The position numbers and the translations under genes were made by a program. A DNA stretch of 31,616 nt from IMG/VR virus record IMGVR_UViG_3300017724_000039, positions 1 through 31,616 of that record; one strand, written 5' to 3'. The notes beneath the pieces were generated by a model. That model saw only the letters and a list, made by a program, of their open reading frames with translations. It did not search any database and was not told where the DNA came from. Origin of the DNA: a virus. Of the stretch, positions 1 to 26,991 are shown in pieces (position 1 is the first letter of the stretch; each line of letters starts with the position of its first letter).

Positions 1-1029
1 CCATTTGATTACTTCTTTTCAGAAGCTATAGAAGATGTTCGTGATCGTATGATGTCAGGAGAAGAAGTAAAAGATTGTCTTAAGTGTACTCACCACGAAA
101 AGAAAGGTGGATACTCATATAGAATGAAAGCTATAGCAAAGTGGGGCTACACGTCAGAAGTAAGAGATGTTTCACTTAAACTAAGAATTAATGGCAGTGC
201 TTGTAATTTACAATGTTACATGTGTCATCCATATAACTCATCATCAAGAAGAAAAGAATTAAGAGAAATATGGGGTGATGATTATGACTTACATTTTTCT
301 GATCCAAAGAAAGTCAAGTTTACTTCAAAATCTACATCACAGAAAAGAAATATTTGGAATGATACTATAGACAACATTAATGAGTATATTCATCTTATTA
401 AAGAAATTCATATGACTGGTGGCGAACCTTTACAACTACCTCGTCATTGGGAATGGGTTGATAGAATACCAGATGAGCATGCAAAAAATATTACTCTAGT
501 ATATGATTCAAATATAACTCAATTAAGTTATAAAAATCATCATGTGTTAGATCTAAAAGAAAAGTTTAAAAAGGTTCATTTTGGAATTAGTTGTGATCAC
601 ATTGGTGAAAAGTTAGAATATATTAGATATCCAATTAATCACAAAGAGTTTGAAGAAAATTTAAAATTTATGACTAGTCATTTTGATACTAGCATTAATG
701 TAACAGTAGGTCTTTTAAATATACCTGATTTATTAGAAATAAAACAATATTATGAAGATATAATAAAGGATTCTAAATATAATAAAGAAGTATGTTGTAG
801 CTCAGTTGTATCTGGTCCTCGAATATTATCAATTAGAAATTTACCAGAACATTTAAAAACACACTACATACAAAAATATAAACAATTCCCTTTAGTAGTT
901 TCTGAATTAAAGCTACCTAAACATACTGACGATTGGTATAAACATATGTCAGAATATATGGATAAGCTTTATGAAAGTAGAGGATTAAAATGGAGAGAAG
1001 TATTTGACGCTGAGAGTTATCGTAGTTAA
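1..1029 (+). CDS. Radical SAM protein, twitch-like family (5' end outside window)
   Basis: The frame is open from base 1, so the ATG codons at 49 and 52 are probably internal and the gene starts upstream. Counting codons from base 1, the 4Fe-4S motif CxxxCxxC is at C68, C72 and C75, followed by a GGEP motif at 140-143; both are hallmarks of radical S-adenosylmethionine enzymes. Before them lies a CxxC (C26, C29) with a following E..G..S.R pattern, which I associate with the twitch-domain radical SAM group found in phages and gene clusters. The reaction is unknown; a peptide- or sugar-modifying role is possible. The next gene overlaps its 3' end and looks like a glycosyltransferase, so the two may act on one substrate. 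Family confidence is high, function is open. Confidence 0.85.
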   Translation, partial: PFDYFFSEAIEDVRDRMMSGEEVKDCLKCTHHEKKGGYSYRMKAIAKWGYTSEVRDVSLKLRINGSACNLQCYMCHPYNSSSRRKELREIWGDDYDLHFSDPKKVKFTSKSTSQKRNIWNDTIDNINEYIHLIKEIHMTGGEPLQLPRHWEWVDRIPDEHAKNITLVYDSNITQLSYKNHHVLDLKEKFKKVHFGISCDHIGEKLEYIRYPINHKEFEENLKFMTSHFDTSINVTVGLLNIPDLLEIKQYYEDIIKDSKYNKEVCCSSVVSGPRILSIRNLPEHLKTHYIQKYKQFPLVVSELKLPKHTDDWYKHMSEYMDKLYESRGLKWREVFDAESYRS

Positions 1030-16746: not shown

Positions 16747-18423
16747 TTATACTCCGATCGAAATCTGTTTTCTTGTTAAAGGTTCTTCAAAACCAAATGC
16801 TAAATTTTCTTTACCAAATTTATTGTTTACATATTCTTCAACATCAAACCCAGGATCTTGTTTACCTTTATCGTCTGTGTCTACATGGCCAAATGCTTGT
16901 CCGCCGGGATAAACTTTATAAAAGTTTTTCATAAATTGATCAAAGGCTGCAAACTGTTTTTCATTAATAGAACCAGAGTTTACATAGTTACCCCTATTAG
17001 GAGTTCCTGACATACAGTTATATCCTGCAACAAAACTAATTCCTATACTTCTATTATTATGTCCGTTATCTAAAGCATGTGCTCCTACTTTATTAATAGG
17101 TCTGCCGCGCTGTAGTCTTCCATCTTTTCTAATAATATAATGATAACCACATCCAGAGAATCCTCTTTGTGTATGCCATTCGTGAACTTCTTCTGAACCA
17201 ATATCTTGATTCAAAAATGTACCAGTCCAATGAACAACAACTTCAGTAATTTCACGACTAACAGATCTTAGTTCTGCTTCTAATTCTTCTTCACTACTAA
17301 TATAAGTAAACCCATATTTCTTAGTAGTAGGAGCTGAAGTATTTCGTTGAGCATTTACAATTTTTGTAGTAGCACCTTTTTCGTTATTTGTTATAACTTC
17401 TGTGTTTGCTGGTGCAGGATCATCAACAGCTTTATTTTCTTTTCTTTGAGCAATAATATCTGGTGTTGCTCTAATTTCTTGTTGTGTTGCAACTGTAGTA
17501 TTTTCATTTTGCCAAACGTTTGCACCAGCTCCAATAATTTCATCAGTAGAAGTGCTGCCGCCAATTGCGTCAGTAATATCTGGAGTTTTCAATGTATCAG
17601 CAACAGAAGTTGTAAGACTATTAACTCTATCTTCAATCACAGCAAAATCTAGTGGTGAGCTAGATGATATTGTATTAGCAACTTCTTTAAATGCATTTAA
17701 TTCGCCTGAAGATATTTTAGATGTTAATCCATCTAATTGACTTTGATCAAACACTCCATTTACCATATTACTAATATCTCTAAATACAGATTTATCAGCC
17801 TTTAGTGTTACAGCTTCAAGTATGTTTGGAGAACCTCCACCTTGCTGTGCAGTTAATGCATCTGCAAATGCTTTAACATCATCTTCTAAAGCCTCTCCCA
17901 TTGCTTTAGCTGCTTCAAGACCTTTGTTTATTGTATTTTTTAATTCAGCTTGAAATTCCGGTGATGTAAGTTCATTCAATACGCTATTAAGTTCAGCTGC
18001 AGCTCTTGGTGTAACTTCTACCAACGCATCTTTAACTGCCCTAGGTGTATTAGATGATGCTACCTCTTTTAAGAATCCATTAGATCCTGCATCAGTTGTA
18101 CCAGCGATTGCTTGTAATTCAGCAGCTGCAGTTGCAGAAGCTTCAGTCATATCTTCTATAAGATCTGCAGTAAGACCCGGAACATCTTTTGTCATGAAAC
18201 AAACAGCATCACCCGGAGCTAGATCTGTAGGATGATCTGCAGATTGAGATACAGGTTTAAATCCATTGATAGCTTCTAAGTCTCTTCCTAATTTACTTTT
18301 AGTAGTAGCTTCAAATCTTTTTCTAAGAGTTTCTGCAGCAGAAGCCAAAGCGGCCGACTGTGTACGAACAGCAACTCTTGTTTCTCCTAGTGCTTCATTT
18401 AATCTAGCTGTTGTTATTGTCAT
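16747..18423 (-). CDS. Tail-associated N-acetylmuramoyl-L-alanine amidase (amidase_2 / T7 lysozyme type)
   Basis: A 558-residue protein with two parts. Residues 1-360 are alanine-rich and helical with low-complexity linkers, likely a structural or coiled region. Residues of about 390-545 form an amidase_2/PGRP domain that would cleave the bond between N-acetylmuramic acid and L-alanine in peptidoglycan. Likely zinc ligands are H398 (VVVHWTGT), H513 (FGHVDTDD) and D523 (QDPGFD); K521 precedes D523 by two residues, as the catalytic Lys does in AmpD and T7 lysozyme. Y427 in GYHYII matches the T7 lysozyme tyrosine. It starts inside the stop of the lysozyme gene (4-base ATGA overlap) and is followed after one base by the needle gene, so it is most likely a spike component rather than a lysis enzyme. 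Confidence 0.85.
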   Translation of the reverse strand: MTITTARLNEALGETRVAVRTQSAALASAAETLRKRFEATTKSKLGRDLEAINGFKPVSQSADHPTDLAPGDAVCFMTKDVPGLTADLIEDMTEASATAAAELQAIAGTTDAGSNGFLKEVASSNTPRAVKDALVEVTPRAAAELNSVLNELTSPEFQAELKNTINKGLEAAKAMGEALEDDVKAFADALTAQQGGGSPNILEAVTLKADKSVFRDISNMVNGVFDQSQLDGLTSKISSGELNAFKEVANTISSSSPLDFAVIEDRVNSLTTSVADTLKTPDITDAIGGSTSTDEIIGAGANVWQNENTTVATQQEIRATPDIIAQRKENKAVDDPAPANTEVITNNEKGATTKIVNAQRNTSAPTTKKYGFTYISSEEELEAELRSVSREITEVVVHWTGTFLNQDIGSEEVHEWHTQRGFSGCGYHYIIRKDGRLQRGRPINKVGAHALDNGHNNRSIGISFVAGYNCMSGTPNRGNYVNSGSINEKQFAAFDQFMKNFYKVYPGGQAFGHVDTDDKGKQDPGFDVEEYVNNKFGKENLAFGFEEPLTRKQISIGV

Positions 18424-19259
18424 GTAGTAAACCTCTTATATATTTCTTCTGCTTTAAGTCTACGAGCTGTCTCTCTTACTGGTGAACTAACTAACCAAGT
18501 TATATAATATCTAGTAAATATATCAACTGCTGCTTTAGTTCCAGTAGTTCGTTTTAGTTTACCTAAACCTAAGAAAGGAAATGTTCTTAATTCATAAAGT
18601 ATAAACTGTAACTGAGCTCCAAGAGAACCAGGGTTTAATCCTCTATTGCCAGCAAAGTATAATAGATTCTGATATCTATTTCCTTCTGTTTCAATCATAG
18701 GCCATTGTACAATACCATATGATCCTTTAACTTCTTTGAGTGGATCTATCTCATTACCTGACTGCTCAATTATAGCTGCAACGATTGCAGCTGCAACTTC
18801 AGTTCCAAAGTTTGCAGCAATAAAAAAGTTAAATGCTTTTTCTGCATTAGTAGAACCTTTTATGAATGATGATATTCCTTCTGCTTCTGTTTGTAATGAA
18901 GCATCTCCTTCTGATAAAGCTTGCACCTGTTGAGGAGAAGGATCTTCTACAAAAGGAACTGTTCCCATTATTATAGGAATCTGTGATGAGGGTCCATCCA
19001 TGAAAAAACCGACGACTCTAGCGCCTTCAATTAGTTGTGGCATTTTACCAATACCAGAACTTCCGCCTTCTGTTGTTGGAACAATTGCTTGTGCCCAAGG
19101 TAATGCATCTGATGGCAGATCTTCGATTCTTTCAGGATGGATTCCGTAAATTCGAATTTGCGATCTTCCTAGTTGTAAAGGATCTGCTGTATTAATAACA
19201 ACACCCATAAACCAGCGAAAGTTATCTCCGTAATATAATTGATCAATTGTAGTACTCAT
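18420..19259 (-). CDS. Spike N-terminal part: gp5-like OB fold plus tail lysozyme domain
   Basis: A 279-residue protein. Residues 10-105 are the gp5 OB-fold domain, with the usual FRWFMGVVIN...DPLQLGRSQIRIYGIHP opening and IEGARVVGFFMDG...PIIMGTVPF ending; in T4 it binds gp27. Residues of about 137-279 look like a phage tail lysozyme domain, with a hydrophobic helix into IIEQSGNEIDP (E165 as candidate catalytic acid), then GSYGIVQWP (179-187) and a long helical C-terminus. This replaces the T4-type lysozyme of gp5. The gene overlaps both neighbours by 4 bases (ATGA), which favours a fixed ratio of hub, spike and amidase. The beta-helix that should follow is two genes downstream. Confidence 0.85.
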   Translation of the reverse strand: MSTTIDQLYYGDNFRWFMGVVINTADPLQLGRSQIRIYGIHPERIEDLPSDALPWAQAIVPTTEGGSSGIGKMPQLIEGARVVGFFMDGPSSQIPIIMGTVPFVEDPSPQQVQALSEGDASLQTEAEGISSFIKGSTNAEKAFNFFIAANFGTEVAAAIVAAIIEQSGNEIDPLKEVKGSYGIVQWPMIETEGNRYQNLLYFAGNRGLNPGSLGAQLQFILYELRTFPFLGLGKLKRTTGTKAAVDIFTRYYITWLVSSPVRETARRLKAEEIYKRFTT

Positions 19260-23005: not shown

Positions 23006-23590
23006 ATGAGTAATATATTTCAAAATATGCAGATAGCTGCATTCCGAGCTGGCATTCAACCTAGGACTAAAGAGTCTCAGGATTGGTTCCGTCGTAAAGC
23101 AAATCAAATGAGAAGAGTAAATAGAAGTTCTATTGTAAAAGAAGAACCTATTCAACAAACTGGTAGATTTGCTCCAGGGAATATGTACATGTTTACATAT
23201 GATCCTAAGACAAAAGATAAGCTACCATATTACGATACGTTTCCACTAATAGTTGCTGTTGAAAAAGCTCCCGGTGGATTCTATGGTTTGAATTTGCATT
23301 ATCTTCCTCCTATGTTAAGAGCTAAACTTCTTGACGCGCTCATGGATAATTTAACTAATAAAAAATTTGATGACTCAACTCGCTTTAAAATTAATTACAG
23401 AATGTTAAAGGCCGCAAGTAAATACAAACATTTTGCGCCATGCTTCAAACATTATCTAACTGAACATGTACGTTCTAGATTTGCTGAAGTGCAATCACCT
23501 GAATGGGAGATCGCAACATTCCTACCAATGGCTAACTTCCAGAAGTCTGGTAAGAGAGCTGTATATGCAGATTCTAGGAAGGCAATTTAA
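23006..23590 (+). CDS. gp2-like protein (possible DNA end protector)
   Basis: A 194-residue protein directly after gp4. The core (GRFAPGNMYMFTYDPKTKDKL..., YDTFPLIVAVEKAPGGFYGLNLHYLPP, about residues 52-95) looks like a small beta-barrel; the rest is helical and basic (RFKINYRMLKAASKYKHFAPC...). In T4, genes 2 and 4 are adjacent and gp2 protects packaged DNA ends from RecBCD. The place and basic character fit that, and I recall similar proteins being called gp2 in marine phages, but T4 gp2 is longer (about 274 residues), so the assignment is tentative. The stop overlaps the next start by one base (TAATG). A second methionine at residue 8 is an alternative start. Confidence 0.8.
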   Translation: MSNIFQNMQIAAFRAGIQPRTKESQDWFRRKANQMRRVNRSSIVKEEPIQQTGRFAPGNMYMFTYDPKTKDKLPYYDTFPLIVAVEKAPGGFYGLNLHYLPPMLRAKLLDALMDNLTNKKFDDSTRFKINYRMLKAASKYKHFAPCFKHYLTEHVRSRFAEVQSPEWEIATFLPMANFQKSGKRAVYADSRKAI

Positions 23591-24210
23591 TGGCACAAGG
23601 TATAGATACATTTAAGTCAGAAGTATTTCAAGGCATAGCAATGAACAATCTGTTCAGGGTTCTATTGCCGAGTATCCCTGGCTCATCTGGCAGACAATTA
23701 AATTTGTTATGTAAAACAGCAGGAATGCCGGGTAGACAAATACTTACAACTGAAAGACGAATAGGTTTACAATCTCAAAAGATTGCATACGGATATGCAG
23801 TTGATGATGTTAGTATGACATTCCATTTGTTAAACGATTACGGTGTCAAAAACTATTTTGATAACTGGGCTAATATGATTGTTAATAATGAAACACTTGA
23901 AGTAAATTATAAGAAAGAATATACTCATGATGTTATCATTCAACAATTAAGAAAGGATGCTATCCTTGATTTAGGTTTCAATTTTAATATTGGACCTTTT
24001 AATATTGGAGGTGATATCGTTACTCCAGACCAAATAGCATATACGTGTGTATTGCAAGATGCATTCCCAACGACAATAGGTGCACAAGAATTTTCCAACG
24101 AACAAGGTGGAACTAGCGAATTGACTGTGCAGTTATCTTACACTAACTGGAATAGTAGATCCGGAGGGTTCTTAGAAACTCTTGCGAATGTTACTAGACT
24201 ATTTTCATAA
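23590..24210 (+). CDS. Tail-tube-fold protein (gp19/gp54-like)
   Basis: A 206-residue protein with the tube-fold pattern: NNLFRVLLPSI at the start, CKTAGMPGRQILTTERRIG at about 41-59, then YGYAVDDVSMTFHLLNDYGVKNYFDNW and NYKKEYTHDVIIQQL. These are usual in gp19-type tail tube proteins and their baseplate relatives. It is between gp2 and gp26, next to hub and tape-measure genes, so a tube initiator (gp54-like) is as likely as the main tube protein; T4 gp54 has 320 residues and gp19 163. A 40-residue glycine-rich beta insert (FNFNIGPFNIGGD) lies near 128-140. Confidence 0.7.
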   Translation: MAQGIDTFKSEVFQGIAMNNLFRVLLPSIPGSSGRQLNLLCKTAGMPGRQILTTERRIGLQSQKIAYGYAVDDVSMTFHLLNDYGVKNYFDNWANMIVNNETLEVNYKKEYTHDVIIQQLRKDAILDLGFNFNIGPFNIGGDIVTPDQIAYTCVLQDAFPTTIGAQEFSNEQGGTSELTVQLSYTNWNSRSGGFLETLANVTRLFS

Positions 24211-24225
24211 TTAAAGGACTTTATA

Positions 24226-24939
24226 ATGGCACTACCTAAACTAAATTCGACGCCGAAATACAAAATGACTGTACCTTCTACAGGGCAGGAAGTAGACTTC
24301 AGACCTTTTCTCGTAAAAGAAGAAAAGGTATTAATGATGGCAATGGAAACAGGAGATGATGAAAGCGGTATCAGAGCAATCGTCGATACTATCGCTTCTT
24401 GTGTTGCTACTGAAATTGATACAAACACATTAAAATCTTATGATATTGAATATTTGTTTTTAAGAATTAGAGCAAAGTCTGTAGGTGAGAAATCAACTAT
24501 TACTATTGCTTGTAAAGAATGCGAACATCCTAATCCATATGTAATTAATCTAGAATCGCTAGAAGTATCTGAAGGTGAAAGCGCTAAAGATATTCCTCTT
24601 ACACCAGAACTTACTGTATCAATGAAGTTTCCATCTTATAAAGATCTACTAACAGGTGGATTAAGAGCAGAAGGTGAACATGACCTTGATGTTATTTTTA
24701 ATCTAATTGGTAAATGTATTGACGGTGTTAAAACTGAAGATGAATATTTTTCTATGGTTGATCAACCTCAAGAAGAAATTAAAGAATTTATTGAATCATT
24801 AAGCTCAGAACAATTTGGAAAAATTAGAGAGTTTGTTGAATCAATGCCTAAGTTATCACATAATGCAGAATTAACTTGTGAAGAGTGCGGAGCAGAAAAT
24901 AAACAAACACTGAGTGGTATCCAAAGTTTTTTCTCATAG
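24226..24939 (+). CDS. 26: Baseplate hub assembly protein gp26 (tail assembly chaperone)
   Basis: A 237-residue protein (T4 gp26 has 208) with the pattern of the T4 baseplate/gp26 family: VDFRPFLVKEEKVLMMAME at about 23-41, then YDIEYLFLRIRAKSVGEKS at 72-90. Two CxxC pairs (C96/C99 and C218/C221) may form a zinc ribbon. A good AAAGGA ribosome site precedes the ATG. At the 3' end, bases 24927-24933 are a perfect slippery heptamer (T TTT TTC in the zero frame), one codon before the TAG stop; a -1 slip there would add 63 residues and give a 299-residue product. The tape-measure-like gene follows, so gp26 is likely the short form of a tail assembly chaperone pair. Confidence 0.88.
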   Translation: MALPKLNSTPKYKMTVPSTGQEVDFRPFLVKEEKVLMMAMETGDDESGIRAIVDTIASCVATEIDTNTLKSYDIEYLFLRIRAKSVGEKSTITIACKECEHPNPYVINLESLEVSEGESAKDIPLTPELTVSMKFPSYKDLLTGGLRAEGEHDLDVIFNLIGKCIDGVKTEDEYFSMVDQPQEEIKEFIESLSSEQFGKIREFVESMPKLSHNAELTCEECGAENKQTLSGIQSFFS

Positions 24940-24976
24940 CCCTCTCTCACGACAGTCTGGTAAATCATTTCCAGAC
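24927..24976 (+). promoter_or_regulatory. Probable programmed -1 frameshift signal (slippery heptamer and downstream hairpin)
   Basis: The heptamer T-TTT-TTC at 24927-24933 fits X-XXY-YYZ in the gp26 frame; both tRNAs can re-pair after a -1 slip to TTT-TTT. The zero-frame stop is at 24937. The -1 frame is free of stops from 24903 to 25121. A perfect 6-bp inverted repeat, GTCTGG at 24955-24960 and CCAGAC at 24971-24976 with a 10-base loop, lies 21 bases downstream. This is further than the usual 5-9 bases, so the stimulator is less certain than the slippery site. Confidence 0.7.
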
Positions 24977-25124
24977 AAACTTCCAATTGATGCAGCATTA
25001 TAATTATTCATTGGGAGATTTAGAGGGGATGATGCCTTGGGAGAGGGAGTTATATGTTAGTATGTTATTAGATCATTTGAAAGAAGAAAAGTCGAGAGCC
25101 GATCAACAAAAAATGAGGAAGTAA
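24933..25124 (+). CDS. -1 frame extension of gp26 (GT-like domain)
   Basis: An open -1 frame of 63 residues directly after the slippery site, with no ATG until codon 20. It reads as real protein: LVNHFQTNFQLMQHYNYSL, then DLEGMMPWERELYVSMLLDH and a charged end. The PWERE-Y pattern with a helix after it is what the second domain of tail assembly chaperones (lambda T, and hub-assembly genes of T4-like phages) looks like. It ends 1 base before the tape-measure-like ATG at 25126. It could also be expressed alone from ATG 24990 as 44 residues, but no clear ribosome site precedes that codon, and the conserved-looking part begins before it. Confidence 0.7.
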   Translation, partial: LIALSHDSLVNHFQTNFQLMQHYNYSLGDLEGMMPWERELYVSMLLDHLKEEKSRADQQKMRK

Positions 25125-25125
25125 A

Positions 25126-26991
25126 ATGGCTGAAAAAGAAGAAGGTGCAGCACCAAAGGCGAATCAAAAAGGTGTATTCACTGACATAAAAAATCAACTC
25201 ATTGAAAGTAATCAACATCAATTGGTTACTGCTACAGCCGTGCAAGAACTATCTGGCTCATTTCAAAAAATGATTATCCAACAGGATCAATCAAGACTTG
25301 ATCAATTAGAAAAGGATAGAGAATCTGCACAAAAGGTTGCAGCCGGACAAGCATCTCTTAATTCAGCTACTTCTTCGCCTGATGCAGGAAAAGCTTCTGG
25401 TGGTATGGGTGGAATCCTCGGTAAACTATTAGGTGGTGGCGCGGCTCTTGCTATTGGCGGTGCATTAGGTGCAGCAGCTGCAGCTATTGTCGCAATTCTT
25501 AATATTGATACAAAGAAAGTCAAATCTTCTGTTAAAGATTTACTTTCAATAAGTGATGAACTTGGTGGAGTTACAAAAGCTTTTGTTGATGGTGGAACGT
25601 TTCTTGCAGTTATGTCAGGAATTGGATTAGGTCTTGCAGTCTTCGGTGTAGGTTCTGCAATAGCAGGAATGAGCAATGAATTGTTAAATAACTTTGCATC
25701 TCCTACATGGGCTCAAGATATTATCGATAACGTACTTGTATTCATGAGTCTAAACGAACACCTAGGTGGTGGCATGTTAGAGAATCTCGGTAAAGCTGGT
25801 GTTTTCCTTGGAGTCATGACAGGCTTAGGAATGGGTCTTGCTATATTTGGTATTGGTTCTGCTGTTGCTGGTATGAGTAATAAACTATTAGATAAGTTTT
25901 CCGGTAAAGGTTGGGCTCAAAGTATTGTTGATAATGTAGTTGTATTCATGAGTCTAAACGAACGATTAGGTCCTAGCATGTTAGAGAACCTTGGTAAAGC
26001 TGGAGTCTTTCTTGGAGTTATGACAGGAGTAGGTCTCGGTCTTGCCGTCTTTGCTGCAGGTACTGCTGTCGCAGGAGCTCTTACATTTTTCCAAGATCCA
26101 AACTTTTCTCAAAGTATTGTAGATTCAGTAGTAACACTATTGAGTATTAGTGAGAAGATGGGTGGACTAGGAAATACTCTTACAGAAGGTGGTACGTTCT
26201 TTGTAGTTATGACTGCAATCGGCGCTGGTTTGGCAGTATTTGGAGCAGGCAGCGCAATAGCTGGTGTTGCACAAAAGTTTTCGAACTCAGACTTTGCACA
26301 AAAAACAGTAGATTCAGTAGCAACTCTGTTAACTATTCCTGATAAAATGGGTAAAGATCCAGTAGCACAATCTGCAATCTTTACTCAAGCAATGGCTGGA
26401 ATTGGCGCAGGTCTTGCCGCTTTTGCAGGTGGCCAGATGATAGGATCATTAGCTAATGCGGGTGAAGCTTTGCTAGGATTCTTTGGCGTAAAATCTCCAT
26501 TTGAAAAGATTATGGATATTGTAGACCAAAGAGATCAGCTGGTTGAAGGTGCTGATGCAATGGATAGGTTATCCAAATCTATAACAAAGATGGGATATCT
26601 TGAGTTTGATGGTTCAAACTTAAATCTAACAAAGTTTGCTGAAGATCTAAAAGAAGCAGTTCCTATTATTGAGGCTGCTATTATGGGTGAACAACCCGGA
26701 ATGTTATGGGGTAAAGGTCTAAAAGGATTAGCTTCTCCTGATATTAAATATGATGAAGCTGTAGCTAACGTTCAAAAAATTCAATCAATGTTTATATCTG
26801 GCGCAGAAATGAAAGCATCAAAAGCTGGTATTGATGAAGCCGGAGGTGGTTCTAATGCTGTTGTTGCTCCTGTAACAAATAATTATTATAATACAACTAA
26901 TAATAATTACCTACAAGGAAGTTCTCAAGCAAAAGCTGGTGGACAATCGCCAATGGATAGACGTAGATCTATGGCTCAAGAATTTAGATAA
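25126..26991 (+). CDS. Tape-measure-like tail protein (gp29 position)
   Basis: A 621-residue protein (T4 gp29 has 590). The first 80 residues are a charged helix. Then comes a glycine/alanine-rich hydrophobic stretch (residues 93-126), followed by five repeats of about 61-68 residues, each with a hydrophobic segment like VFLGVMTGLGMGLAIFGIGSAVAG and a helix WAQ.I.DNV.VFMSLNE. The C-terminus holds a low-complexity NNYYNTTNNNY stretch and a basic end. Alternating hydrophobic and helical repeats and the place after the gp26 chaperone pair are what a tape measure protein shows. An AGGAAG ribosome site lies before the ATG, inside the end of the gp26 extension. The stop at 26991 is 100 bases from the convergent gp32 gene. 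Confidence 0.75.
   Translation: MAEKEEGAAPKANQKGVFTDIKNQLIESNQHQLVTATAVQELSGSFQKMIIQQDQSRLDQLEKDRESAQKVAAGQASLNSATSSPDAGKASGGMGGILGKLLGGGAALAIGGALGAAAAAIVAILNIDTKKVKSSVKDLLSISDELGGVTKAFVDGGTFLAVMSGIGLGLAVFGVGSAIAGMSNELLNNFASPTWAQDIIDNVLVFMSLNEHLGGGMLENLGKAGVFLGVMTGLGMGLAIFGIGSAVAGMSNKLLDKFSGKGWAQSIVDNVVVFMSLNERLGPSMLENLGKAGVFLGVMTGVGLGLAVFAAGTAVAGALTFFQDPNFSQSIVDSVVTLLSISEKMGGLGNTLTEGGTFFVVMTAIGAGLAVFGAGSAIAGVAQKFSNSDFAQKTVDSVATLLTIPDKMGKDPVAQSAIFTQAMAGIGAGLAAFAGGQMIGSLANAGEALLGFFGVKSPFEKIMDIVDQRDQLVEGADAMDRLSKSITKMGYLEFDGSNLNLTKFAEDLKEAVPIIEAAIMGEQPGMLWGKGLKGLASPDIKYDEAVANVQKIQSMFISGAEMKASKAGIDEAGGGSNAVVAPVTNNYYNTTNNNYLQGSSQAKAGGQSPMDRRRSMAQEFR
25594..26460 (+). repeat. Five tandem repeats in the tape-measure-like gene
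   Basis: Equivalent glycine codons of successive repeats stand at 25594, 25798, 26002, 26191 and, by alignment, near 26374. The first two steps are exactly 204 bases (68 codons), then 189 and about 183. Repeats 1-3 are close at DNA level: a 19-base string (TTCATGAGTCTAAACGAAC) occurs at 25741 and again at 25945, exactly 204 bases apart. This points to recent duplication of one unit. Confidence 0.85.

Follow-up and report, generated by a model that had tools for sequence, protein, structure and literature searches.

In phage lambda, a single gene with a -1 shift near its 3' end gives rise to a short and a long tail assembly chaperone, gpG and gpGT, in a ratio of about 30:1, and the tape measure gene comes next after the extension; the role of gpG is to coat the tape measure, that of the T domain to recruit subunits of the tail tube (PMC5009743). 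Among the Vandenendeviridae and Andersonviridae, a T-rich site ahead of the tape measure has been described as the place of a -1 shift that is conserved family-wide, with the motif reported as GTTTTT (PMC12846349). For T4-like phages, the chaperone genes were identified by Vladimirov, Gautam and Davidson (Virology 2022, cited in PMC10885494 and PMC12846349); as these two citing papers relate it, T4-like TAC-N genes carry polyT -1 slippery sequences, and some T4-like phages instead have a short gene and a longer fused gene. The earlier note had tied a T4-type gp26 to chaperone frameshifting, a link which is not new and which the passages of both citing papers credit to Vladimirov et al. 2022.

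The locus described here shares the lambda arrangement of one gene, a predicted -1 shift near the 3' end, an extension and then a tape-measure-like gene, with a predicted short and long chaperone. It differs from lambda in its slippery site (T TTT TTC) and in an N domain with two Cys-x2-Cys pairs, and no sequence similarity between its chaperone and lambda gpG/gpGT was detectable. From the Vandenendeviridae and Andersonviridae, which are other phage families, it differs also in the motif. Going by the accounts in the citing papers, the genes are apparently the same as those of Vladimirov et al., and the present phage adds one more uncultured marine member to them; excluding start codons, testing an upstream Shine-Dalgarno-like block by synonymous permutation and recognising the altered junction of the Ackermannviridae were steps of the present analysis.

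The window, i.e., the whole 31.6-kb stretch of DNA that was analysed, is an uncultured virus record with T4-like tail and baseplate genes, a fragment of a marine T4-like phage. On the + strand a tail tube gene (23590-24210, phrog_45 tail tube match 7.4e-34) is followed by the gp26 homologue (24226-24939, 237 aa), its -1 frame extension (24933-25124, 63 residues and a stop) and a tape-measure-like gene (25126-26991, 621 aa) with its own Shine-Dalgarno sequence GAGGA at 25115-25119. Since family searches with the 621-aa product returned no match to tape-measure families or to any other family, we infer its tape-measure-like identity from its position after the chaperone gene and from the corresponding gene of HTVC008M, which does match tape-measure families. 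The protein has internal repeats, residues 206-443 aligning with a shifted copy of the protein itself at 51% identity. On the - strand, 16747-18423 encodes a 558-aa protein with a C-terminal Amidase_2 domain (3e-13) and adjoins a gp5-like lysozyme gene (18420-19259), and the baseplate region may thus hold two cell-wall-cutting proteins. A radical SAM protein (PF04055, 8e-8) is encoded at the left end of the window (49-1029, + strand), adjoining the tail and baseplate genes. Rfam and tRNA scans across the window matched nothing.

We consider it very probable (roughly 94%) that programmed -1 ribosomal frameshifting at T TTT TTC yields two tail assembly chaperones from the one gene. The 3' end of gp26 reads ...AGT TTT TTC TCA TAG, in which the heptamer (24927-24933) stands in the X XXY YYZ register and only TCA separates it from the TAG (24937-24939) that ends the short form, which confirms the earlier note's placing of a slippery heptamer one codon before the stop. 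An in-frame T TTT TTN occurs twice in the 10,038 codon positions of the genes of the window, and the chance that the final five codons of any one gene contain it is about 1 in 1000, with the long conserved -1 frame not counted in.

Conservation was assessed in 100 gp26 loci, made up of the window, 80 IMG/VR contigs found through gp26 protein similarity alone, and annotated phages. The check that the earlier note had proposed, conservation of the heptamer across related phages, came out clearly in its favour: an in-frame T TTT TTN lies near the stop in 97 of the 100 loci, which reduce to 74 distinct sequences and to 42 clusters at 70% identity of the long-form protein, and the six T are present in all 42. 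The base that follows the six T varies (36 T, 22 C, 8 A and 8 G among the 74 distinct sequences), so that the second codon encodes either Phe or Leu (TTT, TTC, TTA, TTG), and the codon before the slippery TTT encodes Asp, Ser, Ala or Asn with a final base that is always T. As background, these genes use TTT for 70% of their Phe codons and T at 34-75% of wobble positions, depending on the residue. With clusters treated as independent, the preference for TTT over TTC has a log10 P of about -6.4, and that for T as the wobble base of the codon before it one of about -7.3; because the clusters are related by descent, these values (1e-6, 1e-7) overstate the strength and are taken as a sign of strong constraint, not as probabilities. 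The zero-frame stop moves by 0-8 codons among relatives while the heptamer and the -1 protein stay in register, and in Pelagibacter phage Mosig the stop lies eight codons later with this register unchanged.

After a TAA at 24900-24902, the -1 frame stays open from 24903 to the TAA at 25122-25124, with 63 codons past the shift, and closes one base before the ATG of the tape-measure-like gene at 25126, as the earlier note had described. Its translation, which the same note had called protein-like, matches phrog_634 ('baseplate hub assembly catalyst', 4.8e-25) and, in addition, the final 50 positions of phrog_150, to which gp26 itself belongs. The latter match gave a first indication that both parts are joined in a single frame in some relatives. 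Conservation of the -1 frame protein is near background upstream of the heptamer and high from the heptamer on. An alignment of the extension from 37 relatives shows a conserved block LSHDSLVNHY.TNF.LMQHH.YSL.ELE.M.PWERE.Y that includes the PWERE pattern. Against two relatives at about 70% gp26 identity, L006 and L007, differences at -1 frame codon positions 1/2/3 numbered 6/3/16 and 8/5/19, and amino-acid identity was 94% and 91%, respectively, in the -1 frame versus 62-75% in the other two frames. Judged by this pattern of substitution, the -1 frame is a real coding frame under clear protein selection.

Such a frame could also be a separate small gene, the 'gp51' of cyanophage annotation, begun at an internal start or by coupled reinitiation at the gp26 stop. 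Deposited annotations do give the extension its own start in Syn19, S-SZBM1, Mosig, S-PM2 and HTVC008M, and an ATG in the -1 frame overlaps the gp26 stop in KVP40, Mendera, W-14 and RHph_I1_9, which could use coupled reinitiation besides slippage. Many relatives, however, read GATTTTTTT, in which a TGA closes the -1 frame directly before the heptamer and the conserved block follows five codons later, and in many of them no start codon of any kind stands between the two. No ATG, GTG or TTG occurs across the entire -1 ORF of Desulfovibrio phage 7757 (L094), and the first start is found at codon 33 or 34 of about 60, past the middle of the ORF, in Aeromonas phage AS-szw (L095; none before codon 33) and in L017. 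The first possible start in the window is codon 20 (TTG 24987, ATG 24990), which has no apparent Shine-Dalgarno sequence and would lose the conserved LSHDSLVNHFQTNF block. An independent gene would also leave unexplained six invariant T that persist despite amino-acid changes, and T4 carries the same region inside one long protein. We regard a separate gene as very improbable, because of the stop before the heptamer, the missing starts and the register kept as the zero-frame stop moves, and these support a reading in which the extension is reached from the slip rather than from its own start. The contrary case envisaged by the earlier note, an unconserved heptamer with a downstream frame that always has its own start, turned out the opposite way, with the heptamer kept and a start that is usually unusable.

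It is very unlikely that only the short form matters and that the heptamer simply follows from a conserved Phe-Phe pair within an AT-rich gene, the -1 frame being due to chance or decaying. Phe-Phe is indeed also kept in T4 gp26 (EFFELL), which is without such an extension, but the gp26 genes of T4 and CHI14 use TTC TTT in place of six in-register T, Leu is frequent at the second codon with the T retained, and the -1 frame is under the protein selection described above. Transcriptional slippage as the source of the long form can be set aside with similar assurance, for although T runs can make RNA polymerase slip and runs of eight T occur in some relatives, the window and 38 of the 74 distinct sequences have a run of just six, short for such slippage, conservation tracks the X XXY YYZ register and not run length, and the TTA/TTG/TTC changes preserve codon re-pairing.

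The identification of the short form as a T4-type gp26, made in the earlier note, agrees with its match to PF12322 (T4_baseplate, 9.2e-63, 212 bits against a cut-off of 24.5) and to phrog_150 (7.9e-64). For comparison with T4 itself, the 42 predicted long forms were built into a profile, which was then searched against T4 and two relatives of T4 type. T4 gp26 aligned to positions 11-238 of 298 of the profile and thus ends at the shift point, and T4 gp51 aligned to positions 24-282 and thus passes through it. PF12322 was found by Pfam in both T4 proteins, and on phrog_150 T4 gp26 covers 14-235 and T4 gp51 covers 13-280. A profile of the C domain found residues 207-244 of T4 gp51 (8e-8) and 204-249 of AS-gz gp51 (6e-12), E-values that refer to a small search space. 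By these profile alignments T4 gp26 is the short form and T4 gp51 is the full-length long form. T4 genes 26 and 51, which the abstract of the Vladimirov study reportedly names, are two separate genes that lie back to back on opposite strands and need no shift, unlike the arrangement in the window; the window phage would therefore make from one gene what T4 makes from two.

Structure prediction covered the window and the IMG/VR loci. The AlphaFold2 model of gp26 (mean pLDDT 83) had as its best PDB match 2ob9, the HK97 tail assembly chaperone, at a Foldseek E-value of 0.83. On realignment, 3fgx gave a Z of 7.4 and 2ob9 a Z of 6.5 (rmsd 4.2 over 85 residues), which are middling values, and all other structures gave 2.6 or less. 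The 2ob9-like part is the predicted N-terminal region of about 85 residues, and the model supports, without proving, a tail assembly chaperone fold for the N domain of gp26. A sequence search of the PDB with the gp26 and extension profiles found nothing relevant.

In the frameshift model, most ribosomes would terminate at 24937-24939 to give gp26 (TAC-N, 237 aa), and a minority, on reaching the two Phe codons, would move one base backwards and continue translation as far as 25124 to give a long form of 299 aa (TAC-NC) that ends in the extension (TAC-C), with a predicted junction-spanning peptide ...GIQSFFLIALSHDSLVNHFQ.... By analogy with lambda gpG/gpGT, the N domain would coat the tape measure from the next gene, the C domain would bring tail tube subunits to it, and both chaperone forms would then leave. 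For the window phage we infer the slippage, its rate and these assembly roles from such analogy. Short and extended chaperones of the lambda G/GT type, as proposed in the earlier note, fit the order tail tube, gp26, extension and tape-measure-like gene, the match to the HK97 chaperone fold and the finding of T4 gp51 as a long form.

A 6-bp hairpin lying 21 nt downstream of the heptamer had also been pointed out, and its arms are present (GTCTGG 24955-24960 and CCAGAC 24971-24976), but it is not conserved and is probably incidental. The stem is common to L006 and is broken in L007 and L008, and the consensus fold of four sequences reaches only -0.9 kcal/mol. Across 43 folded sequences the downstream region exceeded shuffled controls in stability by a small margin only (mean z -0.8 to -1.7), and no common downstream stem was found among them. 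Upstream, by contrast, the 42 clusters carry a purine block whose GG is placed exactly 9 nt ahead of the heptamer. Pairing of this block with the anti-Shine-Dalgarno sequence was -5.70 kcal/mol, versus -4.86 (sd 0.20) after synonymous codon permutation within each gene, with none of 300 permutations as strong. The block partly encodes a Gly that is also kept in the non-shifting T4 gp26, so only the excess over permutation is counted. The block of the window itself, GAGTGG at 24912-24917, is weaker than most. In E. coli dnaX, the -1 shift is stimulated by an internal Shine-Dalgarno sequence at about this distance. On the sequence evidence, the Shine-Dalgarno-like block is probably a likelier stimulator than the hairpin and would probably aid the slip in the window.

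Two groups of deep relatives are without T TTT TTN. One, the Ackermannviridae (MAM1, Det7, Ds3CZ and cp19), keeps a homologous -1 extension. Their junction reads G RTT TTC AT(C/T) followed by a stop (L099, 2224-2262; L107, 1366-1404; L108, 1369-1407; L109, 1366-1404), which resembles the slippery site of T7 gene 10 and, as GGTTTTC in MAM1, is that site. The other, a Vibrio phage group (VPALA, K444, D510), has (A/G) CTT TT(C/T) at the same point (L098 near 2224, L104 near 1221, L105 near 1077), a sequence with which the P-site tRNA would scarcely be able to re-pair once it had slipped by -1. From these junctions the shift point seems to predate this particular heptamer. The fuller proposal, that what drives the T4-like chaperone shift is a Shine-Dalgarno-like block inside the gene, at a fixed 9 nt ahead of T TTT TTN as in E. 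coli dnaX, and not a downstream hairpin, and that the shift point was kept while the slippery sequence became G RTT TTC in the Ackermannviridae, is a tentative one to which we give slightly less than even odds.

The frameshift bears on the annotation of cyanophages, whose gp51 was reported to be without the first ~200 residues and to be only some 20% as long as T4 gp51 (Sullivan et al. 2010, PMC3037559). On the frameshift reading it is short because it represents the frameshifted tail of gp26 rather than an independent gene. In many cyanophage records the extension is split, truncated or left out. Among L001, L003, L005, L087 and L088, an annotated internal start removes the conserved beginning of the extension in Syn19, Mosig and HTVC008M, and the extension is missing from the annotation of S-CAM1 and ACG-2014d. 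The central idea is already published, and the window is a further, well-supported case, a new member of the mechanism described for T4-like phages; the frameshift would explain the long-standing puzzle of cyanophage gp51 annotation.
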